From Psychromonas ossibalaenae ATCC BAA-1528 (GTDB lineage: Bacteria > Pseudomonadota > Gammaproteobacteria > Enterobacterales > Psychromonadaceae), in assembly GCF_000381745.1 (NCBI RefSeq), contig NZ_KB906991.1:1-64000 (forward strand): 64,000 nt of DNA. The letters run 5' to 3'. Below, piece after piece: positions 22,491 to 45,006 of the stretch. The notes beneath the pieces were generated by a model. That model did not search any database. It saw nothing but the letters and a program-made list of their open reading frames with translations, and was not told where the DNA came from. The position numbers were made by a program, and so were the translations under genes. Within the stretch, counting starts at the first letter, position 1, and each line of letters opens with the position of its first letter.

Positions 22491-25400
22491 ATGACGACAA
22501 AAATAACTCTGTGTGATGATATTTCTGAGCAGTTTGATTCTCCGGCATATCAGCTGCTTGAAAAAATAGGTGAAGGTGGTTTCGGGCGTGTTTATCGGGC
22601 CATACAGGTTAATACCGGACAGATTGTTGCTATTAAATTTTTGTCGATCGGTGCTGAGTTTGATTTGTCTAAAAGGACTCGTTATATTGAACGTTTTCAG
22701 CGTGAAACGTTACTAGGCAGCCGCCTGCAGCATCCTAATATTGTACGTTTGCTGGATAAAGGTAAAAGTGGGGAGCTTCTTTATGCAGTCTTTGAGTTTG
22801 TAGAGGGGAAAACCTTAAAACAAACATTACTCGAGTCCGGTACGCTGATGCCCTCTGATGCCGCCGCCGTTATGTCTCAGGTTTTAGATGCCCTTTCTCA
22901 TGCGCATGAGCAGGGGGTTATCCACCGCGATATTAAACCCGCTAATATTATCCTTACTAAAACAGGCGCCAAAACACATGCTAAAGTATTAGATTTTGGT
23001 ATCGGTACCTTTGTGAATGAGGCTCGTTTAGAAGATCATAAAAGCATCACCTTGACGCAGGAAACGTTAGGTACGCCTTCCTATAGTTCCCCTGAACAGC
23101 TGCGCGGGGAGCCACCGACAGTAAAGACCGATCTTTATGTATGGGGTCTTGTCTTTATCGAGTGCCTGACCGGGCAGCCTGCGATGTCGGGATCTAATCT
23201 GGCATCGGTTTTTCATAAGCAGCTCAGTCAGAGCAATGTACCTCTGCCGGCCGCTATTGTCGGTCATCCGATTGCTGCTCTACTGCGGCGGGTATTACAG
23301 AAAAAGGCACATGAGCGCACGGTTAATGCGCGAGAGTTATATCAGGAACTTACGCAGATTAATTTTTCTAATCTTGTCGGTGATATGGCGGCACCCAAAG
23401 AGCACCGCAGTGAACATTCCACAACTGTACTGCGCAGTGATTTTGACGAAACCGTTATTCATGATAGTGCAATGCAGTACAGCAGCTTAACAGAGCGTAA
23501 ACAGATAACTGCATTGAGTATTAATTTAAGTGTGCATTCGGTAACAGATCAGGTGATTGATCATGAAGTGGCTGATGCACTGCACCGCGATCAAAAAAAC
23601 CAGTGTTTAGATACGGCAGTGCGTTACGGTGGTTTCCATGCCGGTACGCTGGGTGATACGCAGTTGTTTTATTTTGGTTACCCTGCGGTGAGTGATAATG
23701 ATTCTCGCCTGTGTGCGCGCACCGCCCTGGATATGATCAGTAGTTTACGAAAACGTAATGCCCTGCTTAAAAACAGTCAGGGAATACGGATGGAGATCCG
23801 GGCCGGCATGCATACTGGTTTAGTTACCTGTTATGCAGATGCGGTGCCGGAAGGAGATACACCTAATATTGCTATGCAGCTTGCGCGCATGGCAAATTGT
23901 TGTCAGGTACTGTGTTCTGACAGCAGCCGCAATATGCTCGAAGGTTATATTAATTTTGAACCTCGGCAGAGCTGCATGCTGGGCATCGATTCTACTGAAA
24001 CGGCTCTGTATAATTTATCTTCAGAGCGTCACGTTGAAGCATTTGGTTTTTTACGCGGCACACAGAATAATAATGTCTTTATCGGCCGGGAAGAAGAACT
24101 TAAGTCTCTAGACGCGCTGCTTTATAATCCTGAGCTGGATAATACATCCAGCATACTAAGCCCCAATAAATTCGCTCATGTTTATGGTGAAGCTGGGATT
24201 GGTAAATCACGTCTTATATTTGAATTAAGAAACCGCTGTCCGCAGATGTTTCATTATGGTGCGCAGTGTCTGCCTGAACAGGTAAATAATGCCCTGTATC
24301 CTATTTTAAATATGCTTAAATATAAGTATTCATTAGAAGCTCTAACACAGTCTGGCGCGGTGAATAAACTTATTAACGTGCTGAATCATATACAACCGCA
24401 GAGTGCGCAGGAAACGGTACCTGTGCTTTGCTCGTGGTTAGGTTTACCTTTACCGGAAGGGTTGCCTGTTTCTCCTCTCAGCCCGGAACTGCAAAAACAG
24501 GTTTTATTTGCAGGTTTAGCCGCCTTATTGATCAGCCCTGACCAAGTGAAGGAAACTCAGCCGAATTTATTTATCTTTGAAGATATGCACTGGGCGGATC
24601 CCGTCAGTATTGAATTTGTTGCTTATTTGAATCAGGATCAAGGATTTATTGATTCAAGCGATGTGTTTATTACGACGTCTCGTCTGCCTTTACCTAAGTT
24701 GTTAAAAGCTGCTGATTTTGAATTAATTGAAATAGGCAGATTATGCCAGGCTAAAACTCGTGAATTTGTCATTAACCTTTTTGATAACAAAAAAGTATCC
24801 AGTCATTTATTAGATGTCGTGGTTTCCCGGACTGATGGTATTCCGCTGTTTATTGAAGAACTGGTTAATATGCTTAAGCAGAAAGGCCTGACACAACATT
24901 TAAATGGTATTACTGACTTTACGCACGCTGAAAATATTGATGAGGTACCTAATAGCTTACGTGACTCCCTGCAGCAGAAACTTGATGCATTAGTATCAGC
25001 CAAAGAAACAATACAACTGGCCGCTGTTATCGGCCGCGAGTTTGATTATGCTCTGTTTGCCAGCGCTTCAAAGCGAAGTGAAGCACAGCTGCAGAATGAT
25101 TTAACTGAATTATTAGAAGCTGAGCTTATCTATCTGCAGCGAAAGGTTGCCGGAGACAGCTACATTTTCAAGCATGCTCTGGTAAGGGATGCTGCGTATG
25201 ACTCGATTCCATCTGCTGCTTTAATCGCACTTCACAGCCGTGTAGCTGATGCGCTGAAAACGCATCCGGAAACAGCAGACATGGTGGTGGCGGAGCATTT
25301 AGCTAATGCACAGCGTTATGCTGAAGCTATCGCACTTGGGTTATCAGCAGCTCAAACCGCATTAGCTAAGTCGCTTAGTCAGAGTGCGTTTGATATTGCG

Positions 25401-26654
25401 AATAAAGCACTTAACTGGAATGAGTTACGGGAAGACAGTGCAGAAAAATTTGAATCCTCGCTGCACTTATTAGCAGTGACTCTACCGGCAATTATGATTG
25501 TTTCAGGCATGGGGGCGGATAGTGTCGGCGAAGAGATAAAAAGGTGTGAAATCGCACTACAGGGCTTGAAAGATTTACCTTCCGGTTCATTAACACAAGC
25601 GCAGATGGAACTTGAAAGAAGCAGTAAGTTTGCATTAGTTGGTTTTTATAATGTGCGCTCCATGCGCCGCAAGGCAAGAGTAACCGCTGAAGAACTGCTT
25701 AAGCAGGCGATGTTTTTAAAAGATGTGGAATTCGAAATAGCTATCAGAAGTATTTTAGGGCAGAACTATTATATGGAAGGCATGTATCTACAGGCCAAAG
25801 AGACCTTGGAAACGGCTATTGCTATGTATGAACCGGAAAAGCATCAGGGGTTAGCGGTTAAATACTCGCTCGAGCCGGAGTCTTACTGTCGAATGACGCT
25901 GGCACTAGCCTTATGGAAATTAGGCTATGCAGATCAGGCTGTAACCACAGCTAAAAGTGCCCATGAGCGGGCGACTGCAATAGGTCATACCGCATCGGTT
26001 GCGATGGCAAATGTATATCTTGGTTTGATCGGCTACTTTCGAAAAGAGCCTGACTTTATTCTTGAAGTTTCCGAAAACAATAAAAAAATGTGTGAACGTT
26101 ATCCGGACATGGCCTGGTGCACATTATTTTTGAAGTGTCTGGAGGAGTGGTCGAATAAATCTACGCTGCATACGGAGCCGTTTATTGCACAAAAGCGCGC
26201 TGAAAACGAGCTGTTTGCAATGACCTTTTACGAAGCGACACTTGCTGAAACTAAAATCCAGTTGGGTGATATCGAACAAGCACTAGAGTTATTAAGTGAA
26301 AGCATTAACTGGTGCCATAAAACCGGAGAAACGATTGCATTGCCCACTCTTTACCGCATTCGTGCACAAGGTTATTTAGCTTCGTCTAAATATGATACGG
26401 ATGCTGCTGTGAACGCTTTAAAAAATGCTGTTAATATTGCACAAAAACAGGGCTCAATTGCTTTAGAGTTAGACGCCTGCGTGGATCTTTGTATGTTCTA
26501 TAAACTTGAACAGCAGTTCTCTAAGGTCGTTGAGTTACTGGGACCTTTATTAGCTAAATTTAGCGAAGGTTTTGAAACCACAGTTTTTCAGGAGGCAAGT
26601 TTATTATTAGCAGACTGCCGTGAAAACCAGAAAAAACATGAGTACACAGCTTAA
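22491..26654 (+). CDS. TOMM-type kinase/cyclase-like/STAND fusion protein 1
   Basis: Giant signalling protein of 1387 residues, of the kind named TOMM system kinase/cyclase fusion. The Ser/Thr kinase (about 20-290) has loop GEGGFGRVYRA, Lys49, HRD 145-147 and DFG 168-170. The class III cyclase-like domain (about 335-505) keeps one metal aspartate (Asp389 in GTLGDTQ). Asn345 replaces the first metal aspartate and Gln463 the transition-state arginine, so it is probably inactive. The STAND/AAA ATPase (about 530-900) has GEAGIGKSR with Lys572 and Walker B EDMHWAD at 697-703. Helical TPR-like repeats run from about 920 to 1387. There is no membrane segment, so it is cytoplasmic. A 130-residue precursor gene follows. 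Family known; signal and target unknown. Confidence 0.9.
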   Translation: MTTKITLCDDISEQFDSPAYQLLEKIGEGGFGRVYRAIQVNTGQIVAIKFLSIGAEFDLSKRTRYIERFQRETLLGSRLQHPNIVRLLDKGKSGELLYAVFEFVEGKTLKQTLLESGTLMPSDAAAVMSQVLDALSHAHEQGVIHRDIKPANIILTKTGAKTHAKVLDFGIGTFVNEARLEDHKSITLTQETLGTPSYSSPEQLRGEPPTVKTDLYVWGLVFIECLTGQPAMSGSNLASVFHKQLSQSNVPLPAAIVGHPIAALLRRVLQKKAHERTVNARELYQELTQINFSNLVGDMAAPKEHRSEHSTTVLRSDFDETVIHDSAMQYSSLTERKQITALSINLSVHSVTDQVIDHEVADALHRDQKNQCLDTAVRYGGFHAGTLGDTQLFYFGYPAVSDNDSRLCARTALDMISSLRKRNALLKNSQGIRMEIRAGMHTGLVTCYADAVPEGDTPNIAMQLARMANCCQVLCSDSSRNMLEGYINFEPRQSCMLGIDSTETALYNLSSERHVEAFGFLRGTQNNNVFIGREEELKSLDALLYNPELDNTSSILSPNKFAHVYGEAGIGKSRLIFELRNRCPQMFHYGAQCLPEQVNNALYPILNMLKYKYSLEALTQSGAVNKLINVLNHIQPQSAQETVPVLCSWLGLPLPEGLPVSPLSPELQKQVLFAGLAALLISPDQVKETQPNLFIFEDMHWADPVSIEFVAYLNQDQGFIDSSDVFITTSRLPLPKLLKAADFELIEIGRLCQAKTREFVINLFDNKKVSSHLLDVVVSRTDGIPLFIEELVNMLKQKGLTQHLNGITDFTHAENIDEVPNSLRDSLQQKLDALVSAKETIQLAAVIGREFDYALFASASKRSEAQLQNDLTELLEAELIYLQRKVAGDSYIFKHALVRDAAYDSIPSAALIALHSRVADALKTHPETADMVVAEHLANAQRYAEAIALGLSAAQTALAKSLSQSAFDIANKALNWNELREDSAEKFESSLHLLAVTLPAIMIVSGMGADSVGEEIKRCEIALQGLKDLPSGSLTQAQMELERSSKFALVGFYNVRSMRRKARVTAEELLKQAMFLKDVEFEIAIRSILGQNYYMEGMYLQAKETLETAIAMYEPEKHQGLAVKYSLEPESYCRMTLALALWKLGYADQAVTTAKSAHERATAIGHTASVAMANVYLGLIGYFRKEPDFILEVSENNKKMCERYPDMAWCTLFLKCLEEWSNKSTLHTEPFIAQKRAENELFAMTFYEATLAETKIQLGDIEQALELLSESINWCHKTGETIALPTLYRIRAQGYLASSKYDTDAAVNALKNAVNIAQKQGSIALELDACVDLCMFYKLEQQFSKVVELLGPLLAKFSEGFETTVFQEASLLLADCRENQKKHEYTA

Positions 26655-27088: not shown

Positions 27089-27481
27089 ATGTCAGAAATA
27101 ATGCAAACCAGCCTGCCGGGTGATGAACACGTGATTTTGGGTCTTAAGGACGATGAAGAGTGGAAATATGCCTGGGCAAGAGCTGTCGCTAAGGCGTGGG
27201 AATGTCCTCAATTTCGTGAACTGTTATTAACAGATGCTGAAACGGCTGTACGCGAGTTCGGTTACAAAATGCCGCTTGGCACAAAATTGAAAGTTGAAAA
27301 CTATGCCGGAGATAACGCATTCCAGGAAGAAAAAGGTTTGAACGGCTGGGCACATTTTAAAAATGAATTAGCTTCAGAAGTGATCATGGTATTACCGCCA
27401 ACGCCGCAGTTAGAGAAAAGAGCAATCGCTTTAGCTGACTACCAGGCTACAGGCAGAACTTACCCGTTCTCTACAATCTAA
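27089..27481 (+). CDS. TOMM precursor peptide 1 with nitrile-hydratase-like leader
   Basis: Predicted ribosomal peptide precursor of 130 residues. The N-terminal part resembles the alpha subunit of nitrile hydratase (EEWKYAWARAVAKAWECPQF, LLLTDAETAVREFGYKMP), the leader type of the NHLP and BMA_0021-like TOMM precursors. The C-terminal part is PPTPQLEKRAIALADYQATG followed by RTYPFSTI. The second precursor in this cluster matches it nearly residue for residue but ends FTCV. Here Ser128-Thr129 replaces Thr-Cys, so the tail has no cysteine to form a thiazoline. Its only cysteine is in the leader (WECPQF). No protease cleavage motif such as GG is evident. The family name is from memory; the modification is not shown. 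Confidence 0.85.
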   Translation: MSEIMQTSLPGDEHVILGLKDDEEWKYAWARAVAKAWECPQFRELLLTDAETAVREFGYKMPLGTKLKVENYAGDNAFQEEKGLNGWAHFKNELASEVIMVLPPTPQLEKRAIALADYQATGRTYPFSTI

Positions 27482-27528: not shown

Positions 27529-28176
27529 ATTATCGAAACACTGCTGACCCTATTGAACTTATAGCATTCCGCATAAATATGTTACCAATATTACTGCTTA
27601 AAGTTACGTTAAGTTCGTGGTGTTAAATACCAATAGCTAGTGCTCAATCAAACGCCTCACTTCCATTAATTTCCCCTTTATAATTTCAGACGCATCTGCT
27701 TATGCGCATTGCTATTTTCTGCCTAATTATTAGCATTATTTTATCTATCAGCATACTGCTGACAGCAGTCAAAAACGGATATGTTTTCTTGATTATATAA
27801 AGTGCATCAGCGCCGTTCATTACGTGTCTGACATGCGAAGTGTTTAATTAGTGCTGCTGTTATGCATTTAAATTTGTCGTACCAGTGTAGCTTTTCATTC
27901 TAATTAAACTAAGCTTTGGCTATTGTGTTTTTGTGATGGGTGTGTTTTTACTGTGAATTTTCAGGGTGATAGAAATGAAAACTTGCATTTGTTGATTTAG
28001 TTGCTGGTATCATAATTAAACTCGCTCTGTCAAACCCTGCTTTAATCTTGAAAGTGAGATCTGAAACGCACTGATGATACCGTTTATCCGCATTGATACA
28101 TTGAAAAACATCAATTACTGCCGTAGTCTTTTTAGTTGATTTCATAGCTATATGCTCACTAAATAATGAAAATAAT
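27529..28176. promoter_or_regulatory. Leader region of kinase 2, conserved with that of kinase 3
   Basis: No gene is supported. From about 27955 the sequence parallels 36400-36635 before kinase 3. Shared blocks, in order, are TTTTCAGGG.GATAG, GATC.GAAACGCA, GTTTAT, a TATTGAAAAA-like block, TCAATTACTG and ATGCTCAC.AAATAATGAA. The conservation outside coding sequence suggests a shared promoter or a structured leader rather than chance. Confidence 0.55.
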
Positions 28177-31100
28177 ATGACTAGAGAAGCAGTTACTAAC
28201 GATAAAATCGCCGCGCAGTTCGACTCGCCTTCATATCAACTCCTAGAAAAAATCGGTGAAGGTGGTTTCGGCCGTGTTTACCGTGCCAGGCAGATTAATA
28301 CCGGGCAGATTGTTGCTATTAAGTTCTTATCAATCGGCGCTGAATTTGACGAGTCTAAAAGGGCGCGTTATATCGATCGTTTTGAGCGGGAAACTTTACT
28401 GGGCGGGCGTCTGCAGCATCCTAATATTGTGCGTTTATTAGATAAAGGAAATTGTGCTGATCTGCTTTATGCGGTATTTGAGTTTGTAGAAGGTAAAACC
28501 TTAAAACAGACGTTAGCTGAATGCGGCACCCTGCTGCCTATTGATGCTGCTGAAATTATGCGCCAGGTTTTAGATGCATTATCCCATGCACATGAGCAGG
28601 GGGTCATTCACCGAGATATTAAACCAGCCAATATTATTCTTAGTAAAACCGGTGCTAAAACACACGTTAAAGTACTAGATTTTGGTATAGGTACCTTAGT
28701 GGACGAAGCGCGGCTACAGGATTATAAAAGTATTACCCTGACCCAGGAAACCCTAGGGACGCCTTCTTATAGTTCTCCCGAACAGCTCAGAGGGGAGCCG
28801 CCGACGGTCAAAACCGACCTCTATGTGTGGGGCTTAGTTTTTATTGAATGTCTGACCGGACAGCCTGCAATGTCGGGCTCTAATCTGGCATCGGTATTTC
28901 ATAAACAGCTTAGTCAGGAAAATGTGCCTCTTCCGGCAGCCATTGTCGGACACCCGATTGCCGCTCTGCTTCGCCGCGCCCTGCAGAAAAAAGCACATGA
29001 GCGCACGGTTAATGCCGCCGAATTATATCAAGAGCTTACCCAGATTAACTTTTCTAATCTGGTGGGGGATATGGCAGCTCCCAAGGAGCATGCTGTAGAG
29101 CACCATACAACAGTGATACGTGCCGATTTTGATGAAACCATTATTCATGAGCAGCCGCTTAGTTTTACTTCACTGATCGAACGTAAACAGATTACGGCAT
29201 TGAGCATTAATTTAAGTGCATATTCAGCGGCTGATCAAGCTGTTGATTATGAAGTGGTTGACGCACTGCACCGAGATCAAAAAAACCAGTGTCTAGATAC
29301 GGCTGTTCGTTACGGCGGTTACCATGCAGGCACGCTGGGTGACACGCAGTTATTTTATTTTGGTTATCCTGTCGTAAGTGATAATGACAGCCGTTTATGT
29401 GCCCGCAGCGCATTGGATATCATCAGCAGTTTACGTAAACGCAATACCCTGCTTAAAGTAACGCACGGTATAGAGCTGGAGCTTCGCATCGGTATACATA
29501 CCGGTTTAGTCACCTGTTATGCAGATGCGGTACCGGAAGGTAATACGCCTAATATTGCTATGCAGCTTTCGCGTATGGCCTGCTCTGAGCAGGTGCTTTG
29601 TTCAGATGCAAGTCGTAAAATTCTTGAAAGTCATATTGAATTTGAGCCAGTTCAAAGTCATGAGCTGGGAATTAAGCGCACTGAAACTGCTGTTTATAAA
29701 ATGGTAGCAGAACGAACTGTAGAGGCGTTTGGTTTTTTACGGGGAACACAAAATAATCATGCTTTTATCGGGCGTACTGATGAGCTTAGCCGCTTAAACG
29801 ATCTTCTTTGTAACAAGGGAGTTGAAAGTAACAGCAATAATAAGCTCGCACATATTTATGGTGAAGCGGGAATAGGTAAATCACGTTTGATTTTCGAGCT
29901 GCGGAATAACGCGGCCCATATGCATCATTATGTAGCGCAGTGCCTGCCGGAGCATGTTAATAACGCTCTGTATCCTATTTTGAATATGCTTAAATATAAG
30001 TATTCACTGGAGGCGCTGACACCTGAAGCGGCTGCTCAGAAGCTAAGCTGTGAAATAAATCAGATAGAGCATCTGCAGGCTAAAGATGCGTTACCTCTGC
30101 TTTGTTCCTGGTTAGGTTTCCCCTTGCCGGAAGAGATGGAAGCATCGGTGCTCAGTCCGGATCTACAGAAAAAGGTATTATTTACAAGCTTAAGCGCTTT
30201 GTTAGTTAATCAGGATCAAAGCACTGCTTCGCGCCCGAATTTATTTCTTTTTGAAGATATGCATTGGGCAGATCCTACTAGTATTGAGTTTATCGCTTTT
30301 TTAAGTACCAATGATGCATTCAGCAGTTCTAATGATGTGTTAATTAGTACATCGCGTCAGCCGTTACCTGCTTCATTAGGGCAGGCCGGATTTAATTTAA
30401 TTGAACTAGTAAAACTCTCTAAGCAGGATACGCGTGATTTTGTTCGTATTTTATTTGATAAACAGAATGTTTCGGCAAGTTTACTCGATATTGTTGTAAC
30501 CCGTACGGACGGTATTCCTCTGTTTATTGAAGAACTGGTCAACATGCTTAAACAAAAAGGGCTGGTACATCATTTAAACGGTATTACCGATTTTGTAAAT
30601 GCCGACAAAATAAGTGAAGTACCTAACAGCTTACGCGACTCGCTGCAGCAGAAACTCGATGCATTAGTATCTGCAAAGGGGACTGCACAGCTGGCCGCTG
30701 CTATTGGTCGTGAATTTGATTATAACTTGTTAACTGCCGCCTCAGAACTGGGGGAGTCTCAGCTGCAAAATGATTTAAATGAACTGATAGATGCAGAGCT
30801 TATTTATCTGCAGCGTAAAGTAGCTGGTGACAGTTATATCTTTAAGCATGCGTTGGTAAGGGATGCCGCTTACGAGGGAATAAGTTCCCATGCGCTTAGT
30901 CACTCTCATCTTCAAATAGCTGATTCATTAGAGAAGTATTTCCCTGAAGTTGCAGAGAAAGAGCCTGCAATTGTAGCGCAGCACTTTGCATCTGCAGAAA
31001 AATTTTCGCAGGCAGTTTATTATGGTCTTCGGGCTGCAAAACAATCTCTGCAGGCGGCTGCATTTTCTGAAACAGTATCTCAAACTAAGCAGGTGGAATT

Positions 31101-32169
31101 ATGGCTCACAAATTTGAGTGAAGAGGATCAGATTGACAGTAAACTTGAATTGAATGAGATTCTAACAACGGTGAGTATGCATACTGACGGCTGGGCATCA
31201 GATCAGATTAAAGAATATACCAGCCAGTCCATTGAGTTATTAAACTCGAAGCAAGGTTATGAGAAAAAAGAGCTTATTAAATACTTGTGGTGGAAGATTA
31301 TGCAGAGTCTTGTGGCTGGAGATCGGGAACATTTGCCCGAAGTCGCTCAAGAAATTGAAGAACTGCTGGATGTAGCAAGTCCATCAGATAAGTCCGCTAT
31401 TTTGAGTATTTTAGGATATTACTATTACACAGAAGGATGTTGTCAAAAAGGAAGAAAATTTCTTGAATCAGCAGTTGATTATCATTCTGAAGTAGATCAA
31501 GACCAGGAGCATTTTAAGACTTATGGCTGGCATAGCGCTATTTTTTCTTTAGCCAGCTTAGCGCGAGTCTGCTGGGATATGGGGGATACTGATTTAGCGC
31601 TCAACTATGTGGAAAAAGCGGTAAAAAAAGCGAAAGATGCCGATGATATTGGAACTTTAGGCATAACATTAATGTATGCAAGTATTGTCCATCAATACAA
31701 CAACGATAAAGCTTCATGTTTAACTACTGCAGAAGAGTTAGTAACTCTGTCAAATGAATACGATCTTTCCGTCTTTGCCGCTTATGGGCGTTTGATCTTT
31801 TCATGGGCTGCTAATGATGACAGTAAACAGCTGCTGTCATTGGAGGAGCTGAAAAATTATGGCTCTAGACATGCAGTCGCTTATTTCTCTTCATTAATCG
31901 CCGATATCTATATATCACATGGTGCTGTAAATAAAGCAATTGAACGTTTGGATGAATGTATCCATTTATGTCAAACCATAGGTGAGCACTATTACGAAGC
32001 ACAGCTGTACCATCGCAGAGCCCTGTGCCGTGTCCATTATTTCCCTGAACAAAAAGAATTAGCAAAAAAAGATTTTCAACAAGCTTTGATGCAGGCGGAA
32101 AAAGTAGGTGCTTCTTATGTTGTTGAAAAAGTGAAGCATGATCTAACGGCAATTTTTAATGATAATTAA
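28177..32169 (+). CDS. TOMM-type kinase/cyclase-like/STAND fusion protein 2
   Basis: Paralogue of 1330 residues. The first 905 or so residues match the other two closely: loop GEGGFGRVYRA, Lys49, HRD 145-147, a cyclase-like domain with LSINLS and NIAMQ (both key residues replaced), and Walker A GEAGIGKSR with Lys568. After KHALVRDAAY the sequence parts company. The C-terminal 400 residues (from about ISSHALSHSHLQIADSLEKY) are a different helical-repeat domain from that of proteins 1 and 3. The next gene is also different, a protein of about 407 residues in place of a 130-residue precursor. The tail thus appears matched to the partner. The stop codon precedes the next start by 13 bases, so the two are cotranscribed. 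Confidence 0.9.
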   Translation: MTREAVTNDKIAAQFDSPSYQLLEKIGEGGFGRVYRARQINTGQIVAIKFLSIGAEFDESKRARYIDRFERETLLGGRLQHPNIVRLLDKGNCADLLYAVFEFVEGKTLKQTLAECGTLLPIDAAEIMRQVLDALSHAHEQGVIHRDIKPANIILSKTGAKTHVKVLDFGIGTLVDEARLQDYKSITLTQETLGTPSYSSPEQLRGEPPTVKTDLYVWGLVFIECLTGQPAMSGSNLASVFHKQLSQENVPLPAAIVGHPIAALLRRALQKKAHERTVNAAELYQELTQINFSNLVGDMAAPKEHAVEHHTTVIRADFDETIIHEQPLSFTSLIERKQITALSINLSAYSAADQAVDYEVVDALHRDQKNQCLDTAVRYGGYHAGTLGDTQLFYFGYPVVSDNDSRLCARSALDIISSLRKRNTLLKVTHGIELELRIGIHTGLVTCYADAVPEGNTPNIAMQLSRMACSEQVLCSDASRKILESHIEFEPVQSHELGIKRTETAVYKMVAERTVEAFGFLRGTQNNHAFIGRTDELSRLNDLLCNKGVESNSNNKLAHIYGEAGIGKSRLIFELRNNAAHMHHYVAQCLPEHVNNALYPILNMLKYKYSLEALTPEAAAQKLSCEINQIEHLQAKDALPLLCSWLGFPLPEEMEASVLSPDLQKKVLFTSLSALLVNQDQSTASRPNLFLFEDMHWADPTSIEFIAFLSTNDAFSSSNDVLISTSRQPLPASLGQAGFNLIELVKLSKQDTRDFVRILFDKQNVSASLLDIVVTRTDGIPLFIEELVNMLKQKGLVHHLNGITDFVNADKISEVPNSLRDSLQQKLDALVSAKGTAQLAAAIGREFDYNLLTAASELGESQLQNDLNELIDAELIYLQRKVAGDSYIFKHALVRDAAYEGISSHALSHSHLQIADSLEKYFPEVAEKEPAIVAQHFASAEKFSQAVYYGLRAAKQSLQAAAFSETVSQTKQVELWLTNLSEEDQIDSKLELNEILTTVSMHTDGWASDQIKEYTSQSIELLNSKQGYEKKELIKYLWWKIMQSLVAGDREHLPEVAQEIEELLDVASPSDKSAILSILGYYYYTEGCCQKGRKFLESAVDYHSEVDQDQEHFKTYGWHSAIFSLASLARVCWDMGDTDLALNYVEKAVKKAKDADDIGTLGITLMYASIVHQYNNDKASCLTTAEELVTLSNEYDLSVFAAYGRLIFSWAANDDSKQLLSLEELKNYGSRHAVAYFSSLIADIYISHGAVNKAIERLDECIHLCQTIGEHYYEAQLYHRRALCRVHYFPEQKELAKKDFQQALMQAEKVGASYVVEKVKHDLTAIFNDN

Positions 32170-32182
32170 GGACAATAATAAA

Positions 32183-36635: not shown

Positions 36636-39600
36636 ATGACTATAAAAGCAGTTTTTAGCGATAAAACCTCCGAGAAGTTTGACTCTTCTGCATATGAACT
36701 ACTCGAAAAAATAGGTGAAGGCGGCTTTGGCCTAGTTTATCGTGCCAGACAGATTAATACCGGGCAGATTGTTGCCATTAAGTTCTTATCAATCGGCAGC
36801 GAATTTGACCAGGCTAAAAGAACACGTTATATCGATCGTTTTGAACGGGAAACATTACTTGGCGGACGTCTGCAGCACCCCAATATAGTACGTTTATTAG
36901 ATAAAGGTAATTGTGCTGATCTGCTTTATGCGGTATTTGAGTTTGTAGAAGGTAAAACCTTAAAACAAACATTAGTTGAATGCGGCACCCTGCTGCCTAG
37001 TGATACGGCTGAAATTATGCGCCAGGTTTTAGATGCATTATCCCATGCTCATGAGCAGGGGGTTATTCATCGAGATATTAAACCGGCCAATATTATTCTT
37101 AGTAAGACAGGGGCCAAAACACACGTTAAAGTATTAGATTTTGGTATTGGTACCTTAGTCGACGAAGCGCGGTTACAGGATTATAAAAGTATTACCCTAA
37201 CCCAGGAAACCTTAGGGACACCTTCTTACAGTTCGCCCGAGCAGCTCAGAGGCGAACCGCCGACAGTAAAAACTGATTTGTATGTGTGGGGCTTAGTTTT
37301 CATTGAATGCCTGACCGGACAGCCGGCAATGTCGGGATCTAATCTTGCGTCGGTATTTCACAAACAGCTTAGTCAGGAAAATGTACCTCTTCCTGCCGCC
37401 ATTGTCGGGCACCCGATTGCGGCGCTCCTTCGCCGGGTCTTACAGAAAAAAGCACATGAGCGCGCAGTTAATGCCTCAGAGTTATATCAAGAGCTTACCC
37501 AGATTAATTTTTCCAACCTGGTGGGGGATATGGCAGCTCCAAAGGAGAAGGCTGCTGAGCACCATACGACGGTGATACGTGCAGATTTTGATGAAACTAT
37601 TATTCATGAACAGCCGCTTAGTTTTACTTCGCTGGTCGAGCGTAAACAGGTAACTGCACTGAGTATTAATTTAAGTGCGTACTCAGCGGCTGATCAAGAT
37701 GTTGATTATGAAGTGGTTGATGCACTGCACCGCGACCAAAAAAACCAGTGTCTGGATACGGCTGTCCGTTATGGCGGTTACCATGCAGGTACGCTGGGGG
37801 ACACACAGCTATTTTACTTTGGTTATCCTGTCGTAAGTGATAATGACAGCCGTTTATGTGCGCGCAGTGCACTGGATATCATCAGCAGTTTACGTAAACG
37901 TAATACACAGCTTAAAGCGACGCATGGTATTGAGCTGGAGCTTCGCATCGGTATCCATACCGGTTTAGTCACCTGTTATGCTGATACGGTACCTGAAGGT
38001 AATACGCCTAATATTGCGATGCAGCTTTCTCGTCTGGCGGGATCTGAACAGGTGCTTTGCTCTGATGCAAGTCGAAAAATACTTGAAAGCCACATTGAAT
38101 TTGAACCTGCTCAAAGTCATGAGCTGGGGATCAAGCGCACCGAAACACCTATTTGCAAATTAGTCGCAGAGCGTACTGTAGAGGCTTTTGGTTTTTTACG
38201 AAGCACGCAGAACAATCATGTATTTATCGGGCGAGATGAGGAACTTAGCCGTTTAAAAGTGCTGCTCAATAATAGAGAGGCACAAGACAATAACCAGAGT
38301 AAACTTGCACATATTTGTGGTGAAGCGGGGATCGGTAAATCCCGTTTGATTTCTGAGCTGCGAAACAGCGCCTCACATATGTTTCATTATGTGGCGCAGT
38401 GTCTGCCGGAACATATTAATAACGGCCTGTACCCTATTTTGAATATGCTTAAATATAAGTATTCATTAGAAGCGCTGACACCAGAAACTACAGTACATAA
38501 ACTGCGTAACCTGATAAATATATCTGAGCCGCTGACTGAGCAGCAGAGCTTACCCGTACTCTGTTCCTGGTTAGGCCTGCCTCTACCTGAAGACATCGGC
38601 ATTTCGGCGCTCAGTCCGGAGCAGCAGAAACAGGTGTTATTTGCAAGTTTAAGCACTTTATTAGTCAGCCAGGACTCACGTACGACTTCGCAGTCGAGTT
38701 TGTTTCTTTTTGAAGATATGCACTGGGCAGATCCTACCAGTGTTGAGTTTATCGCTTTTTTAAGTGCCGATAATACATTCAACAATTCTAATGACGTGTT
38801 TATTAGTACATCGCGTCAGCCGCTGCCTGGTTCATTAGCTGATGCCGGGTTCAATACAGTTGAGTTAGTTAAATTAGGCAGAGCAAAAACCCGTGAGTTT
38901 GTTCGTATTCTGTTCGATAAGAAAAACATATCGGCAAATTTATTAGATGTTGTGGTCAGTCGTGCTGACGGTATTCCGCTGTTTATCGAAGAACTGGTAA
39001 ACATGCTCAAACAAAAGAATCTAGTACAGCATTTAAATGGGATTACTGACTTTGTTCATGCCGATAAAATCCACGAAGTACCTAACAGCCTACGAGACTC
39101 ACTGCAGCAGAAACTTGATGCATTGGTACATGCCAAAGAAACAGCACAGCTGGGAGCTGCCATTGGTCGTGAGTTTGATTATGCACTGCTGGCTGCTTCC
39201 TCAAATAGAAGCGAAGCTCAGCTGCAGACTGATTTAGTTGAATTAATTGAAGCTGAATTGATCTATCTGCAGCGAAAAGTTGCAGGTGACAGTTATATCT
39301 TTAAGCATGCCTTGGTAAGAGATGCTGCTTATGACTCAATTATCCCTGCTGCATTAGTACAAGTTCACGGCCGTGTTGCGGATGCCATGATAACGCGGCA
39401 GTCAGCTGCACCTATGGTGCTGGCTGGACATTTAGCAAATGCGCACCGTAACCGTGAAGCGGCTGCATTAGGCTTATCCGAATCGCAGAATGCATTAGCT
39501 AAGTCTCTTAGTCAAAGTGCATTTGAAATCGCTCGAAAAGCGATTATATGGAATGAGAAGCGGGCAGACAGTGCCGCAAAATTTGAGGTCTCACTGAATT

Positions 39601-40757
39601 TGTTAGCAGTAAGTCTCCCTGCGATTATGACGGCAGAGGGAATGGGATCGGCTAAAGTTGGTGATGAAATAAAGCGCTGTGAGTTCGCGCTTAAAAACTT
39701 AAAAGATGTCTCATCAGGTTCGTTATCTGAAGCCCAGATTGAGCTGGAAAGAAGAAGTAAATTTGCATTAGTGGGTTTTTATAACCTCAGATCGATGCGG
39801 ACTAAGGCCCGCTTACTCGCTGAAGAGCTGCTCGATCAAGCTGTAAGTATGGGAGATATTGAGTTTGAAATTGCCATCCGCAGCAACCTCGGACAGTGTT
39901 ATTACATGGAAGGTAACTACCTGAAAGCTAAAGATGTCTTGGAAAGAGCCATTGCTATGTACGATCCCGAAAAACATCAGGGGTTAGCTGTTAAGTATTC
40001 GTTAGAGCCGGAATCATTATGCAGAATGACGCTTGCATTGTCCTTGTGGAAACTAGGTTATGCCGATCAAGCTGTTGTCAGCGCGAAAAAAGCACATCAA
40101 AGAGCGGTTCAACTTGGTCATTTCGCTTCCGAAGGAATGGCTAACATATACCTTGGTTTAGTGGCATATTTTAGAAGAGATCCTGATTTTGTAATTGAAA
40201 CCTGCAATGAGAATGAAATTTTGTGCAAAAAACACCCCGATATGGCTTTCTCTATGCTGTTTTTGAAATGTTTAGAAGAATGGGCAAATCAAAGTACAGA
40301 GAATACAGAGCAGCTTATTTCCCAGAGACGTCAGACAAAAGAGTTATACGCTATGACCCTTTACGAGGCCATGCTGGGGGAAACCAAGATAAAACTGGGG
40401 GATGCTGACGGTGCTCTGCAGATATTAGGTGAGAGTATTCAATGGTGTAATAAAACCGGAGAAACGCTGGCTTTATCTACTCTGTATCGTTTACAAGCCC
40501 AAGGTTACTTCGCATCTAAGTCCCATGGAATATATGAAGCTGTTAATGCACTAGAAATGTCGATTAATACAGCTAAAAAACAAAGTTCTATCGCATTAGA
40601 GTTAGATGCCTGTCTGGATCTTTGTAACTTATACAAGTTAGAAAATAAAACCGATAAAATTTCGGGCTTACTAAAGCCGTTATTGAATAAATTTAGCGAA
40701 GGTTTTGCGACAAAAGTTTATCAGGAAGCTAGTTTATTATTAGCTGAATATCGGTAA
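36636..40757 (+). CDS. TOMM-type kinase/cyclase-like/STAND fusion protein 3
   Basis: Paralogue of 1373 residues with the same order of domains. The kinase has a glycine loop altered to GEGGFGLVYRA, but keeps Lys49, HRD 145-147 and the DFG. The cyclase-like domain again has Asn and Gln (LSINLS, NIAMQLSRLA) at catalytic positions. Walker A GEAGIGKSR has Lys568 and Walker B is EDMHWAD. Unlike protein 2, its C-terminal repeat domain follows that of protein 1 throughout (for example KVGDEIKRCEFALKNLKD beside SVGEEIKRCEIALQGLKD). It is followed after 55 bases by precursor 2. The kinase domain is close to protein 2 at nucleotide level, which suggests recent duplication or gene conversion. Confidence 0.9.
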   Translation: MTIKAVFSDKTSEKFDSSAYELLEKIGEGGFGLVYRARQINTGQIVAIKFLSIGSEFDQAKRTRYIDRFERETLLGGRLQHPNIVRLLDKGNCADLLYAVFEFVEGKTLKQTLVECGTLLPSDTAEIMRQVLDALSHAHEQGVIHRDIKPANIILSKTGAKTHVKVLDFGIGTLVDEARLQDYKSITLTQETLGTPSYSSPEQLRGEPPTVKTDLYVWGLVFIECLTGQPAMSGSNLASVFHKQLSQENVPLPAAIVGHPIAALLRRVLQKKAHERAVNASELYQELTQINFSNLVGDMAAPKEKAAEHHTTVIRADFDETIIHEQPLSFTSLVERKQVTALSINLSAYSAADQDVDYEVVDALHRDQKNQCLDTAVRYGGYHAGTLGDTQLFYFGYPVVSDNDSRLCARSALDIISSLRKRNTQLKATHGIELELRIGIHTGLVTCYADTVPEGNTPNIAMQLSRLAGSEQVLCSDASRKILESHIEFEPAQSHELGIKRTETPICKLVAERTVEAFGFLRSTQNNHVFIGRDEELSRLKVLLNNREAQDNNQSKLAHICGEAGIGKSRLISELRNSASHMFHYVAQCLPEHINNGLYPILNMLKYKYSLEALTPETTVHKLRNLINISEPLTEQQSLPVLCSWLGLPLPEDIGISALSPEQQKQVLFASLSTLLVSQDSRTTSQSSLFLFEDMHWADPTSVEFIAFLSADNTFNNSNDVFISTSRQPLPGSLADAGFNTVELVKLGRAKTREFVRILFDKKNISANLLDVVVSRADGIPLFIEELVNMLKQKNLVQHLNGITDFVHADKIHEVPNSLRDSLQQKLDALVHAKETAQLGAAIGREFDYALLAASSNRSEAQLQTDLVELIEAELIYLQRKVAGDSYIFKHALVRDAAYDSIIPAALVQVHGRVADAMITRQSAAPMVLAGHLANAHRNREAAALGLSESQNALAKSLSQSAFEIARKAIIWNEKRADSAAKFEVSLNLLAVSLPAIMTAEGMGSAKVGDEIKRCEFALKNLKDVSSGSLSEAQIELERRSKFALVGFYNLRSMRTKARLLAEELLDQAVSMGDIEFEIAIRSNLGQCYYMEGNYLKAKDVLERAIAMYDPEKHQGLAVKYSLEPESLCRMTLALSLWKLGYADQAVVSAKKAHQRAVQLGHFASEGMANIYLGLVAYFRRDPDFVIETCNENEILCKKHPDMAFSMLFLKCLEEWANQSTENTEQLISQRRQTKELYAMTLYEAMLGETKIKLGDADGALQILGESIQWCNKTGETLALSTLYRLQAQGYFASKSHGIYEAVNALEMSINTAKKQSSIALELDACLDLCNLYKLENKTDKISGLLKPLLNKFSEGFATKVYQEASLLLAEYR

Positions 40758-40812
40758 ACCTGTCAAATAGAGCAAAACTGGATTATTTCACAACCACAGG
40801 AAGGAGATAGAA

Positions 40813-41205
40813 ATGCCAGAAATAATGCAAATTAGTCAGGTCGGAGATGAGAACACTATCATGGGCCTTAAGGCCGATGAAGAGTGGAAGTATGCCTGGG
40901 CAAGGGCTGTAGCGAAAGCATGGGAAAGTCCTGGGTTTCGTGATCTGCTGTTGACTGATGCGGCCGCTGCGTTAAAAGATTTCGGATATACAATGCCGCA
41001 GGGTACCAAACTAAAAGTCGAAAGTTATGCCGGTGACTGTCAGTACCAGGATGAAAAAGGCTGTAACGGCTGGATGCAGTTTAAAGACGAATTAGCATCT
41101 GAAGTTACAATGATTCTGCCGCCGACTCCTGATTTAGAAAAAAGAGCCGTTGCGTTAGCTGACTATCAGGCAACGGGCAGAACATACCCGTTCACATGCG
41201 TTTAA
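40813..41205 (+). CDS. TOMM precursor peptide 2 with nitrile-hydratase-like leader
   Basis: Predicted precursor of 130 residues, paralogue of precursor 1. The leader part has EEWKYAWARAVAKAWESPGF and LLLTDAAAALKDFGYTMPQG. The middle has two cysteines not present in precursor 1 (GDCQYQDEKGCNGW). The end is ALADYQATGRTYPFTCV, so Thr128-Cys129 could be converted to azolines. Heterocyclisable residues are few, unlike microcin-B17-type precursors with long Cys/Ser/Thr runs. It has a strong ribosome-binding AAGGAG and lies 55 bases after kinase 3, probably in one transcript. A short intrinsic terminator follows. Confidence 0.87.
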   Translation: MPEIMQISQVGDENTIMGLKADEEWKYAWARAVAKAWESPGFRDLLLTDAAAALKDFGYTMPQGTKLKVESYAGDCQYQDEKGCNGWMQFKDELASEVTMILPPTPDLEKRAVALADYQATGRTYPFTCV

Positions 41206-41226
41206 CTCGTTGACTGTTTAGAAAAT

Positions 41227-41246: not shown

Positions 41247-41249
41247 ATT

Positions 41250-42503
41250 TTATTCAAAAACAGATCTTAAATTTTCAATTTGAGTTATTTCCGGATCAAA
41301 AGGATAAAGCCTGATTTTTCCTTCATGTTTATCATCTAATGCTTGTAGGCATTTCAGCACAAAGAACTTTTCATTGTTTATCTCTTCTATGGATAAAATC
41401 TCAACACGCATGTTGTTATTCATAAATGTCGGCCCTCTAACTGCACGGGCAATACTGGTCGCTTTTTTTCGCGCCTCCTGAAATACTGCAACAGTTTTTG
41501 CAAGTGGAATCTGGAAACAGCCGTTAGGATCTGTGTCTGCCTCTACAAACATGTGGTAGGGAAACATGCCTAACTGTACCTGCGTATCCCATAACTCAGT
41601 CCAGTCCTGTGCGCTGTCATTAATGTTTTTCACTATCGGAGCCTGACAGCGAATAACGGCACCGGTTTCCTGGATTCGTCTGATAGCTTCTTTTACCACA
41701 TCGGTCTGCAGTTCATTAACATGGGTTATATGTGCCATGATAGCGACATGTTTGCCTTGTGTTTTCAGATATCTAAAATAATCAAGCAGCTCATCCGCAT
41801 CTTTATCCGTGGTAAAACGGAAAGGCCAGTAAGTAAGCGATTTGGTGATAAAGCGGATCACGTCCAGGCTTTCTACATTAATCAGCGGATCAGTAAATTT
41901 TTTGACTTGTGAAGTGGTCATAACCAGCGGGTCTGCACCGGTCATAAAGATATCTTTAATGTGCGGATTATCGCGCAGAAAAGCAATCGGTGTTGCCGGA
42001 TCTGAATAACTGGTTTCTGGAAGAAATTTGCCGCGGGTATGATGGATCCATCTGAAACAATAATTGCACACTGCATGGCATGTTTTTACTGCCGGTGCCG
42101 GGAAAAGGTACAGGTTGGTTGGAAAAGTATGGTAGAGACCAGGAATAATATCACCGTTACATTTAGGGATTCTATCTTCATCAAGAGCAACTGCAGGCCA
42201 GATTTTCTGCTGAACCATGTTGGATACCATATCCATCTCTAATGCACTTGCACCGTCCTTAATCATTCCTGATAATGTTTTAAAATCAAATGCACTTATC
42301 ATATCTTTACGTGGAAATATAAGCTGGTATATGGGATCGTCAGGCAGGTTTTCCCAGTTAATTAAATGCTCCGCTACATAGTTATTTATTTTAAACGGCA
42401 ATACCTTAGTTAATACATCAAACTCGTTGCGCAGCGTTTCTGACATATTCAGATAATAGGGTGTTTTTTTGAAAGAGATTTGAGAGTAAGCTTGATATTT
42501 CAA
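41250..42503 (-). CDS. KamA-like radical SAM protein in the TOMM cluster
   Basis: Radical SAM enzyme of 417 residues resembling lysine 2,3-aminomutase. The iron-sulfur motif is CHAVCNYCF (Cys142, Cys146, Cys149), with the C-x3-C-x2-C spacing. A SAM-binding block, DIFMTGADPLVM, replaces the KamA form SGGDPL. A typical FTTDKDADELLDYFRYLKTQGK region and AIMAHITHVNEL follow. The lysine that binds PLP in KamA lies in a PGGGGK motif. At the matching place this protein reads ARAVRGPTFMNNNMRVEIL, so that lysine is not seen. It therefore may be a PLP-independent relative acting on a peptide. It is transcribed against the other cluster genes and shares the upstream gap with the second YcaO gene. Substrate unknown. 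Confidence 0.85.
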   Translation of the reverse strand: MKYQAYSQISFKKTPYYLNMSETLRNEFDVLTKVLPFKINNYVAEHLINWENLPDDPIYQLIFPRKDMISAFDFKTLSGMIKDGASALEMDMVSNMVQQKIWPAVALDEDRIPKCNGDIIPGLYHTFPTNLYLFPAPAVKTCHAVCNYCFRWIHHTRGKFLPETSYSDPATPIAFLRDNPHIKDIFMTGADPLVMTTSQVKKFTDPLINVESLDVIRFITKSLTYWPFRFTTDKDADELLDYFRYLKTQGKHVAIMAHITHVNELQTDVVKEAIRRIQETGAVIRCQAPIVKNINDSAQDWTELWDTQVQLGMFPYHMFVEADTDPNGCFQIPLAKTVAVFQEARKKATSIARAVRGPTFMNNNMRVEILSIEEINNEKFFVLKCLQALDDKHEGKIRLYPFDPEITQIENLRSVFE

Positions 42504-42745: not shown

Positions 42746-42862
42746 AAGTCTCATTGTTTAAAACTTTATTGTGCTGGCGGTTGTTTTTGTCCGTTGAACA
42801 GTAAATAGTAGTTTAAACACAGTTGATAAATAAAAAATCAAAATATATAGATAGGTATTAAT

Positions 42863-44998
42863 GTGAACGAAATTTTAAGCTGGCATCCTAAATTTAATGT
42901 GTATTGTTTAGATAACCTGGATCTTTTATTAATTAGTGAGTCCGATAGTTTTTCTCTGCCTCATACAAACTTCGCACTGTTCAGTAAGTTCGACGGTGTA
43001 AAAACCGTTGATGAAATTATCGCAGAAACACCCTTAGCTATGCATGAAACTGCGGATTTTCTCTATCAGATAGACAACTTTAAAAAACAACAGCTGCTTG
43101 TCGATAAAAACTATGCACAATCTGCCGCTTATATTAATTATTACACCAATAACAGCACTCTTATTGCTCAAGAAAAAAGTTACTCGCTGTTAAATCTTTG
43201 CGCGTTAAGCAGTGAGAGTTTGGAGCCGTGGGCGACTTTGACTGCTCAATTGAATCTGCCGGAAAAATTTAATTCATCATTGTGTTTTATACTGACTGAC
43301 AGCTTCCTTAATCCGGAAATTATTAACCAGTTACCTGAATGTGAACATATTTGCTTAATTAAAGTCTGCGGTGAGAAGATCTGGTTAGGACCGCTTTTAT
43401 CCGCAGTGAATGCTGCTGAATATTTAACTGCGCTGCAGTCACGTCTGAAGCATAATAATCCGACGCTGACTTTAGCAGAGTCGCTGTTTCCTGAGCAGAG
43501 CCTGTGCATTCCCTATTGCGAACAAGATAGACTGTCTGATGCCCAGCTGCTGCACATTACTAATGAATTAAGTAAGCAGCTAAACGGCCGGCAGGATCAG
43601 ATTGTAATTATTTCGCCGGCAGCACAGCGGGTGGAATATCACCCTGTCTGCTTAGCTGATAATCATCAACAGGCTTTTTCTGAGCAGGTTAACTCAGCCG
43701 TTAAACTGCAGAACTGCCCGGTTAATTTCAATATTGACGGCGGCTCCCGTGCGGTTGCTCCTGAACAGACGGTAGCAAGTATTAAACCTTTTATCAGCCC
43801 GGTCACCGGCCTGATCACCCATATTCAGGTTTTAAAAGAGTGTAAAAATGACCCGGTAAAAATATATTCCACAGCATTTTTTAAAACACCTGCGCTTAAA
43901 GATTCATGGAAATTAGATCAAAGCAGTTTTGTACACAGCTGCATGGGTAAAGGTGTTTCTCATATGCAGTCGCAAGCTAGTGCTTTGTGTGAAGCCATTG
44001 AGCGTTATTCTTCACATTATCAGGGAGATGAACCGCTGCATCTTTCTGTAAAATCTAAGCTTGATAAACGTAATTATGATTTTCAGCAGCTGGTTCCCTA
44101 CAGTCAGAAGCAATATAAGAATTTTACTGACCAGAATCATAGTGACTCATTATTAAAGCAGGCCGCCATACCTTATCAGGATCAGGCAGTGCACTGGCTG
44201 CCGACCTGGTCTCTTAGTGAACAGCAGCAGGTTTACCTGCCGTTGACCCATTGTCTGGCTAATATTCCCTTTAAAGATGATCAGTTCGCGCGCTGGCATT
44301 CGAACGGCTGTGCTGCTGGAAATACGTTAGAGGAAGCAGTCCTGCAGGCGCTGTTTGAATTGATTGAACGTGATGCTGTCGCTATCTGGTGGTATAACCG
44401 CACCCCGAGACCTGAGTTTAATATGGCGCTTATTGACCCGGAGCATTTTAGTTTATTGGATGCGACCTTATCAAAGGAGCATGATTTTTGGGTACTGGAT
44501 TTAACCCATGATATTGAAGTCCCGGTGATGGTGGCTGTTGGACGTAATAAACAAACTCAAGGCTTAAGTTTTGGTTTTGGCTGCCATTTACAAAGTGAGC
44601 TGGCTGCACAGCGTGCACTGACTGAGTTATGTCAGCTTATTCCGATTCGTGATCAGAACGGTGCGCCTTTTGATTTTAATGCTGTTGTTGAACATCCGTT
44701 TCTATTTCCGGGAAATTTCCCGGCAGTAGAAGGTGACGATTTTAACGCTAGCGGTAATATAAAAACGGATATTGAAAATATTGTTAATAAATTAAAAGAG
44801 CTGGATTTAGAAACCTTAGTACTTAATTATTCCCGTGAGCCGTTACCGATTAAAGCAGCTAAAGTATTTGTGCCCGGGCTCTGTCATATCTGGCCGCAGC
44901 TGGCTAACCCGCGCTTATATCAGGCGCCGGTTGATTTAGGCTGGTTAGAAAGTGCCAATACTGAAGATACGATTAATCAGCAAGCTTTGTATATTTAG
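42863..44998 (+). CDS. Fused E1-like/YcaO protein 2 (zinc site lost)
   Basis: Paralogue of the first YcaO fusion, 711 residues. The clamp-like N-terminus (FDGVKTVDEIIAETPL...FKKQQLLVDK) and the YcaO domain with SASALCEAIERY and NTLEEAVLQALFELIERDA are kept. The E1-like part has lost the zinc cysteines. Where protein 1 has ACWQCLNHR this one has AAEYLTALQSR, and the CPCC segment is replaced by VEYHPVCLADNH. The C-terminus ends NQQALYI, as in protein 1, again without PxPxP. ATP use is plausible; leader handling may differ, or it may work as a partner of YcaO 1. The start is GTG with ATAGGTATT upstream; it lines up with the start of protein 1. Confidence 0.85.
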   Translation: MNEILSWHPKFNVYCLDNLDLLLISESDSFSLPHTNFALFSKFDGVKTVDEIIAETPLAMHETADFLYQIDNFKKQQLLVDKNYAQSAAYINYYTNNSTLIAQEKSYSLLNLCALSSESLEPWATLTAQLNLPEKFNSSLCFILTDSFLNPEIINQLPECEHICLIKVCGEKIWLGPLLSAVNAAEYLTALQSRLKHNNPTLTLAESLFPEQSLCIPYCEQDRLSDAQLLHITNELSKQLNGRQDQIVIISPAAQRVEYHPVCLADNHQQAFSEQVNSAVKLQNCPVNFNIDGGSRAVAPEQTVASIKPFISPVTGLITHIQVLKECKNDPVKIYSTAFFKTPALKDSWKLDQSSFVHSCMGKGVSHMQSQASALCEAIERYSSHYQGDEPLHLSVKSKLDKRNYDFQQLVPYSQKQYKNFTDQNHSDSLLKQAAIPYQDQAVHWLPTWSLSEQQQVYLPLTHCLANIPFKDDQFARWHSNGCAAGNTLEEAVLQALFELIERDAVAIWWYNRTPRPEFNMALIDPEHFSLLDATLSKEHDFWVLDLTHDIEVPVMVAVGRNKQTQGLSFGFGCHLQSELAAQRALTELCQLIPIRDQNGAPFDFNAVVEHPFLFPGNFPAVEGDDFNASGNIKTDIENIVNKLKELDLETLVLNYSREPLPIKAAKVFVPGLCHIWPQLANPRLYQAPVDLGWLESANTEDTINQQALYI

Positions 44999-45006
44999 CG
45001 GGTAAT

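Follow-up and report, generated by a model that had tools for sequence, protein, structure and literature searches.

In Burkholderiales, TOMM precursors of the NHLP-Burk group are encoded as tandem pairs or as fusions, one member of which ends in Cys or Cys-Cys, and a large Ser/Thr kinase accompanies them (Haft, Basu and Mitchell 2010, PMC2887384, in its portion on this group). A survey of 2015 names the group and its tandem or fused precursors, and its main text, taken by itself, does not contain the word kinase (PMC4603692). In the gene listing of a transcriptome paper, a TOMM kinase/cyclase gene appears among those with lowered expression (PMC6997564). Across the open-licence literature, mostly at the level of titles and listings, no account was found of the role of this kinase or of a link between its domains and the precursor. 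Here we analyse a locus of this kind, with NHLP-Burk TOMM precursors beside large Ser/Thr kinases, in a stretch of 64,000 nucleotides from Psychromonas ossibalaenae ATCC BAA-1528 (contig NZ_KB906991.1, positions 1 to 64,000; this whole stretch is called the window).

The locus shares with the described clusters the precursor family, a YcaO enzyme with a leader-binding domain and a giant kinase adjoining the precursors (PMC2887384, same portion). In contrast to them, it contains three kinase-precursor units (K1-PreA, K2-X415 and K3-PreB), single PreA and PreB genes, a diverged product of 415 aa (X415), a second YcaO enzyme and genes for a KamA-like enzyme, an amidotransferase and a GGDEF-domain protein, and its host is a gammaproteobacterium. 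What is new, as judged by sequence comparison, is that the C-terminal tetratricopeptide repeat (TPR) domain of the kinase goes with the product encoded beside it, whereas the rest of the kinase does not. The explanation that we favour, and to which we give about an even chance, is that each STAND kinase senses the product of its neighbour and signals through a forkhead-associated (FHA) protein, while common YcaO enzymes modify the conserved tail of the products.

Kinase C-terminal domains and the products beside them

All three kinases score above the cut-off of the family model TIGR03903 (TOMM_kin_cyc; 705.75 bits for the whole protein; scores in Table 1), and NCBIfam and Pfam models place kinase, cyclase-like and AAA/STAND domains together with TPRs in each of them. 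The kinase motifs and the P-loop and Walker B motif of the STAND part are intact, and the NTPase is followed by a repeat sensor, which is the STAND layout. Class III nucleotide cyclases presumably need two metal-binding Asp residues; the first is absent from all 18 kinases read at that stretch (four kinases fetched later are not among the 18), so the cyclase domain is probably dead, and an active cyclase was dropped from consideration. PADLOC matched the kinase domain of K1 and returned no match for three other proteins tried. The arrangement resembles that of STAND ATPases with a TPR sensor, such as MalT and PH0952, where a P-loop/Walker B ATPase is followed by non-conserved TPRs and the effector is located at one end (PMC6468293, in its part on these proteins). 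Unlike in those proteins, the effector here is a Ser/Thr kinase with a probably dead cyclase, and the sensor type varies with the product of the neighbouring gene.

In windows of 100 residues, K1, K2 and K3 are 61-97% identical over residues 1-900. From residue 901 onwards K1 and K3 are still 62-71% identical, whereas K2 is only 12-27% identical to both. The DNA of K2 and K3 is 83% alike over the first 2.84 kb, up to about codon 900, with nothing matched beyond, whereas the 72% similarity of K1 and K3 runs through the kinase gene and recurs in the product gene. K3 is therefore best described as a K2-like front on a K1-like sensor. A similar break separates the kinases of genomes G227 and G176, which are 67-91% alike over residues 1-900 and 0-31% beyond; the product of G227 is of the X378 type and those of G176 have 189 and 207 aa. 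The first-pass annotation of the window had read the locus as a modular system of interchangeable sensor-product units. This reading is supported, because the C-terminal domain varies in concert with the type of product, in conflict with the phylogeny of the remaining kinase, and because the whole K3-PreB unit is present here and absent from P. aquimarina.

The comparison covers 22 full kinases from 19 loci. Two kinase fragments of G266 (631 and 162 aa) were excluded and, out of seven plasmid-collection records with at least 80% coverage, five were used, leaving out a second Pseudoalteromonas record and B. cenocepacia. Kinases above the cut-off turned up in 9 of the 295 genomes that represent the order, in 5 of 24 from the genus and in 5 of 250 from a single betaproteobacterial family. 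A pair of C-terminal domains (C-domains) was counted as detected at a BLAST E value below 1e-5, and conservation of the front part is expressed as percentage of self bits. Between seven Psychromonas TOMM kinases and four kinases without a tailed product, the fronts keep 49-68% of self bits and none of the 28 C-domain pairs is detected. Between the same seven and nine betaproteobacterial TOMM kinases, the fronts keep 22-32% and 62 of the 63 C-domain pairs are detected. For the nine betaproteobacterial kinases against the four without a tailed product the fronts keep 23-35%, with 0/36 C-domain pairs. Altogether, 117 of the 120 C-domain pairs among the 16 TOMM kinases are found. A profile of these 16 C-domains was run on the six held-out kinases and gave 107 bits for G266, 58 for G244, 32 for G079, 20 for G069, 19 for G103 and 17 for P. 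piscicida; four of the five kinases without a tailed product are thus low (17-32 bits) and the fifth is G266. The kinases of G244 and P. piscicida have 77% of front-part bits in common and no detectable similarity of their C-domains. Quick trees of kinase front and C-domain (18 kinases) conflict with each other. Four groupings are rejected in approximately unbiased (AU) tests: two product-type groupings on the front-part data (p-AU 0.0019 and 3e-11) and two front-part groupings on the C-domain data (p-AU 1e-66 and 0.003). Since the sensor part of the kinase changes with the neighbouring product, these comparisons suggest that each kinase recognises its own product.

The same pattern could arise by linkage only, without a functional match of kinase and product, if recombination within the conserved STAND region replaced the 3' end of a kinase gene and the gene after it in one event and the TPR domain sensed something else. 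Kinase and product genes are adjacent or even overlapping, and similarity breaks inside the kinase gene, as this explanation expects. Co-variation alone is no proof of binding, because C-domain and product gene are adjacent and one crossover moves both. However, C-domains can still be recognised between gammaproteobacterial and betaproteobacterial TOMM kinases whose fronts retain only 22-32% of self bits, and the G244 kinase, whose tailed product is encoded five genes downstream, reaches 58 bits with the profile of TOMM C-domains. We consider linkage only to be unlikely.

The first-pass annotation had also described three kinase-family proteins, each followed by a gene whose protein ends in PFSTI, PFTC or PFTCV, and both the open reading frames (ORFs) with their coordinates and the family scores agree with this. 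It had further proposed to test in other genomes whether the gene directly downstream of such a kinase always encodes a product with the same tail. This is true of 12 of the 22 kinases (the three described here, two of P. aquimarina and those of G227, G176, G477, G843, G777, G847 and Variovorax). In four it is the second gene (G797, Paraburkholderia PGU19, B. stagnalis and B. arboris) and in one, G244, the fifth, and none was found in the stretches around the remaining five, so that the word 'always' had to be given up and the refutation named in that annotation, kinases with unrelated neighbours, applies in part.

Class III and IV lanthipeptide synthetases have a Ser/Thr kinase-like domain adjoining the precursor of a ribosomally synthesised and post-translationally modified peptide (RiPP). 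By this precedent the kinase could be a maturation enzyme that phosphorylates Ser/Thr in the product tail. The tails do contain Ser/Thr, the kinases adjoin the products, and LanL and LanKC models match the kinase domain, far below their cut-offs. However, in contrast to lanthipeptide synthetases, the YcaO enzymes are separate proteins here and NCBIfam and Pfam scans of the cluster reveal no lanthionine enzyme. Moreover, the same kinase front occurs in the five of 22 kinases near which no tailed product was found, and the kinase domain stays constant while the product varies, the C-terminal TPR domain being the part that varies with it. A maturation role is for these reasons very improbable and was dropped, and the earlier designation of the product as a substrate of the kinase finds no support.

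The five loci in which no tailed product was found differ in their surroundings. In G266 (L027, L028; assembly 85% complete), kinase, kinase fragments and the GGDEF and FHA genes are kept and no tailed product or YcaO was seen; this cluster is decayed or broken up. Large proteins with a CxxCH motif are encoded directly after the kinases in P. piscicida, G069 and G103 (L061 18282-20812, L087 10671-12931 and L088 10439-12699), and the P. piscicida and G069 proteins of this kind resemble each other only weakly (E 0.011). No YcaO of the TOMM kind was seen near these three kinases; a distant YcaO-like frame is located at L061 20944-23181 in P. piscicida. Behind the G079 kinase are genes for a protein of 318 aa, a YcaO and a TfuA protein (L090 5383-8979), with no tailed product seen there; we take the YcaO and TfuA genes to be a thioamide-type pair. 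Another frame, about 1685 aa long, is located at G000:C34:45859-47823 and G197:C7:35451-37412 and matches TIGR03903 in kinase and STAND-like parts with a score under the cut-off.

Tailed products and their proposed modification

PreA and PreB pass the cut-off (41 bits) of TIGR03795, the BMA_0021/BMA_0022 family of NHLP-Burk precursors, and each stands single behind its own kinase, neither in tandem nor fused. Alignment of 17 products from 13 loci in Psychromonas and betaproteobacteria (the G244 product is excluded and G519 is not counted) reveals the invariant residues W37, P62, W87, P103, P106, A114 and Y118 (PreA numbering) and a tail of approximately AIALxxYxxTGxxYPFTC, with endings that differ (for example YPFSTI, YPLC and YLFTCC). 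A profile of these products matches three places in this genome, each adjoining one of the three full kinases. The common ending is hence not a matter of chance, given the seven invariant columns, the similar tail and the restriction of the profile matches to the neighbourhood of kinases. In two overlapping samples, tailed products were found in 4 genomes out of 295 (order) and in 2 out of 398 (phylum). The 245-aa product of G244, which belongs to another family of the order, ends in HPFTSC, and its last part matches PreA (E 2e-6, nine sequences searched). Behind the G244 kinase (L089 2749-8045) are encoded a weakly PhyH-like protein, proteins of 171 and 283 aa, a YcaO and this product.

X415, whose gene overlaps that of K2 by 11 bp, has no family match in NCBIfam and Pfam scans and does not reach the TIGR03795 cut-off. 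However, X415 and two relatives align with fused precursors of the Comamonadaceae type, over the second half of these (hhalign probability 95.5%, E 1.4e-8). The body of its C-terminal half, without the tail, scores 23.8 against Comamonadaceae-type precursors, where the best of 20 column shuffles gives 14.4, and 20.0 against the second precursors of the Burkholderia type; with the tail included the E value is 6e-11. The notion of X415 as an unrelated protein was therefore dropped, its C-terminal half being a diverged relative of the precursors. A profile of X415-like proteins found nothing credible among PDB sequences.

Both YcaO enzymes proposed in the first-pass annotation are matched by PF02624. 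YcaO1 additionally exceeds the cut-off of TIGR03882, whereas YcaO2 has the PF02624 match only, and neither reaches that of TIGR03604 (219.25 bits; 215.4 and 190.6 bits in the order of listing, YcaO1 first). Among four Psychromonas genomes (this window at 33608-47159; L023, L025, L026 and L079), YcaO1 and the amidotransferase co-occur with the X415 type (n=4), and KamA co-occurs with single-domain precursors or the G176 pair (n=4). In G176 a methyltransferase gene is located between KamA and YcaO2 (L026 4348-5172).

The cluster might alternatively be an ordinary RiPP bacteriocin cluster, in which the bodies of the products serve as leaders and the short tails as cores that are cleaved off, and in which the kinases have a regulatory or immunity function and sense stress or a competing organism. 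TIGR03795 is named as a TOMM bacteriocin family, YcaO1 carries a leader-binding domain, and tandem genes have been taken as possible two-peptide products (Haft 2010, PMC2887384, in the portion already cited). However, in all 113 between-group product pairs similarity is higher in the tail than in the body (mean 39% against 21%), which is the reverse of a leader with a hypervariable core. In Table 3 of the same paper, no cleavage motif 2 is given for NHLP-Burk (PMC2887384). PreA, PreB and X415 contain no Gly-Gly. No ABC transporter or C39 peptidase was found in 29 of the 33 window ORFs of at least 180 aa, the search being confined to these ORFs within the window (14585-15643, 15690-18671, 49560-50489, 54382-55005 and smaller ORFs lie outside it). 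The last result indicates that the product may act inside the cell. A bacteriocin cluster is a doubtful reading in our judgement.

Proposed signalling through the FHA protein

A homologous FHA gene is located near the kinase in 17 of the 19 loci, including G069, G103, G079 and G266, where no tailed product was found. As a tendency, the FHA protein thus accompanies the front of the kinase and the product its end. In 11 aligned FHA proteins, this one included, G42, R43, S58, H61, N79 and G80 are invariant; we take these residues to be phosphothreonine-binding. PknH and EmbR, a Ser/Thr kinase paired with an FHA protein, offer a precedent for regulation by such a pair (PMC4601284, in its part on EmbR). 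However, the FHA domain is N-terminal here and C-terminal in EmbR, and no recognisable OmpR-type domain was found (same source for EmbR); the C-terminal domain of our FHA protein scores 11.9 against one OmpR-type domain, where the best of 30 shuffles reaches 16.9.

The TPR domain occupies the sensor position of a STAND protein and is matched to the product, and so the simplest reading is that the kinase is switched by the product of its neighbour. The locus would then be a three-module NHLP-Burk TOMM system, each module consisting of a STAND-type Ser/Thr kinase and its own precursor. The common enzymes YcaO1 and YcaO2, possibly with KamA and the amidotransferase, would modify the C-terminal ...YPF(T/S)C tail, and the exchangeable C-terminal TPR domain would recognise the matching product, either its body or its modified form. 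By analogy with other STAND proteins, a bound ligand would cause the ATPase to open and the protein to oligomerise, and would turn on the kinase at the N-terminus. The active kinase would signal through the co-encoded FHA protein, probably controlling expression of the cluster. What the sequences show is gene content, homology, catalytic motifs kept or lost, C-domains that vary with the product, a constant kinase front and an FHA gene in most loci; binding, activation, phosphorylation, the tail chemistry and the regulatory role of the FHA protein are our inference.

A 17-bp sequence before the kinase genes, CTNNCGTANYCTTTTTA, is a candidate operator or promoter. Of the 9 kinase starts compared in Psychromonas, 8 have it upstream, at a distance of 39-57 bp from the start codon used, and its 8 occurrences in 11 genomes are all upstream of kinase starts, the reversed control occurring once. 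The upstream regions of the kinases share no 16-mers with five other upstream regions of the cluster.

Several observations weigh against sensing of the product with output through the FHA protein. Sampling is thin, and the 22 kinases do not form an independent sample: those of G069 and G103 are near-identical (98% in the front, 100% in the C-domain), the Comamonadaceae-type and Burkholderia-type rows amount to two groups, and in Psychromonas only three C-domain types are paired with three product types. Pairwise BLAST misses three of the 120 TOMM C-domain pairs (K2-K3, both from this locus, K3-G227 and G176-G847) and detects no TOMM-type C-domain in G244 (0/16). Long branches and uneven composition were flagged in the quick trees, and the groups tested on them were picked after the identity comparison. 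No tailed product was seen in the stretches around the kinases of G266, P. piscicida, G069, G103 and G079, and G266 illustrates that a kinase can stand without a product; conversely, G519 (L030) has a weak TIGR03795 match of 22 bits near a YcaO gene and no matching kinase in the 20 kb around it. The C-terminal half of X415 shows no signal against the bodies of PreA and PreB (11.3), and its first half scores 16.8 where the shuffle maximum is 18.0. On the output side, no FHA gene was seen within the 31 kb that surround the kinase of P. piscicida or the 20 kb that surround that of G244, and the C-terminal domain of the FHA protein, in which a DNA-binding domain was looked for, has no credible match in Pfam or PDB. 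The 17-bp element was defined on the very sequences that contain it, fits two of the three kinases here (the K3 copy has no match) and, with two mismatches allowed, gives three matches in the window, a number equalled by 12 of 100 shuffles.

Product sensing may also belong to a broader scheme, which we regard as tentative and somewhat unlikely. In place of leader-core peptides, the products would be proteins kept at full length whose C-terminus has been altered by enzymes, each a private ligand of the adjoining STAND kinase, and TOMM would be one plug-in of a wider STAND-kinase/FHA chassis in which sensor and product are exchanged as a cassette. The CxxCH proteins of P. piscicida, G069 and G103 and the YcaO-TfuA genes of G079 would be other plug-ins.

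Gene content of the locus and its meaning

The cluster extends up to position 49198 and also holds KamA-like radical SAM, asparagine-synthase, GGDEF and FHA genes (Table 1). The CX3CX2C of the KamA-like protein is presumably the radical SAM motif.

Table 1. Features of the Psychromonas ossibalaenae locus (window coordinates).
Feature	Position	Strand	Basis
17-bp element before K1, candidate operator or promoter	22432..22448	+	CTNNCGTANYCTTTTTA, exact, 42 bp before ATG
K1, Ser/Thr kinase with degenerate cyclase, STAND ATPase and TPR domain (TOMM_kin_cyc)	22491..26654	+	TIGR03903 949.1 bits
K1 variable C-terminal TPR domain, type common to K1 and K3	25227..26651	+	62-71% identity to K3 and 16-27% to K2 after residue 900; TPR Pfam matches
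PreA, NHLP-Burk TOMM precursor, end YPFSTI	27089..27481	+	TIGR03795 53.2 bits (cut-off 41)
17-bp element before K2	28118..28134	+	exact match, 42 bp before ATG
K2, TOMM_kin_cyc kinase of the family of K1	28177..32169	+	TIGR03903 1012.4 bits
K2 variable C-terminal TPR domain, type common to P. aquimarina K2 and G227	30901..32166	+	
X415, diverged NHLP-Burk-like product, 415 aa, end GMPFTC	32159..33406	+	no family match; comparison of C-terminal half
YcaO1 with leader-binding domain	33608..35821	+	PF02624 249.5 bits; TIGR03882 85.8 bits (cut-off 36.9)
K3, TOMM_kin_cyc kinase, K2-like front and K1-like C-domain	36636..40757	+	TIGR03903 940.1 bits; DNA comparison
K3 variable C-terminal TPR domain	39360..40754	+	
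PreB, NHLP-Burk TOMM precursor, end YPFTCV	40813..41205	+	TIGR03795 52.3 bits
KamA-like radical SAM enzyme	41250..42503	-	TIGR00238 101.4 bits, below cut-off 199.2; CX3CX2C present
YcaO2	42863..44998	+	PF02624 258.5 bits
Asparagine-synthase-like amidotransferase	45321..47159	+	TIGR01536 348.8 bits (cut-off 267.1)
GGDEF-domain protein	47548..48123	+	PF00990 110.4 bits
FHA-domain protein, conserved C-terminal domain of unknown fold	48194..49198	+	PF00498 61.9 bits

Elsewhere in the window, positions 8991-18671 contain a locus resembling those for trimethylamine N-oxide respiration (tor), with Pfam matches for a nitrate-reductase-delta-like chaperone, a molybdopterin oxidoreductase, a NapC/NirT cytochrome and a response regulator; the names periplasmic binding protein, hybrid sensor kinase and tor are our own assumption for this region.

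Because the sensor varies with the probably modified product beside it, the role of the giant NHLP-Burk kinase becomes directly testable, and a single marine genome with three natural pairs of kinase and product makes a 3 x 3 matrix of binding and activation possible. The conserved tail on variable bodies calls into question the reading of the NHLP-Burk family as leader and core. If the match between sensor and product is true, it would join RiPP biosynthesis with STAND (NLR-like) recognition and would make the ligand of a bacterial STAND kinase known.

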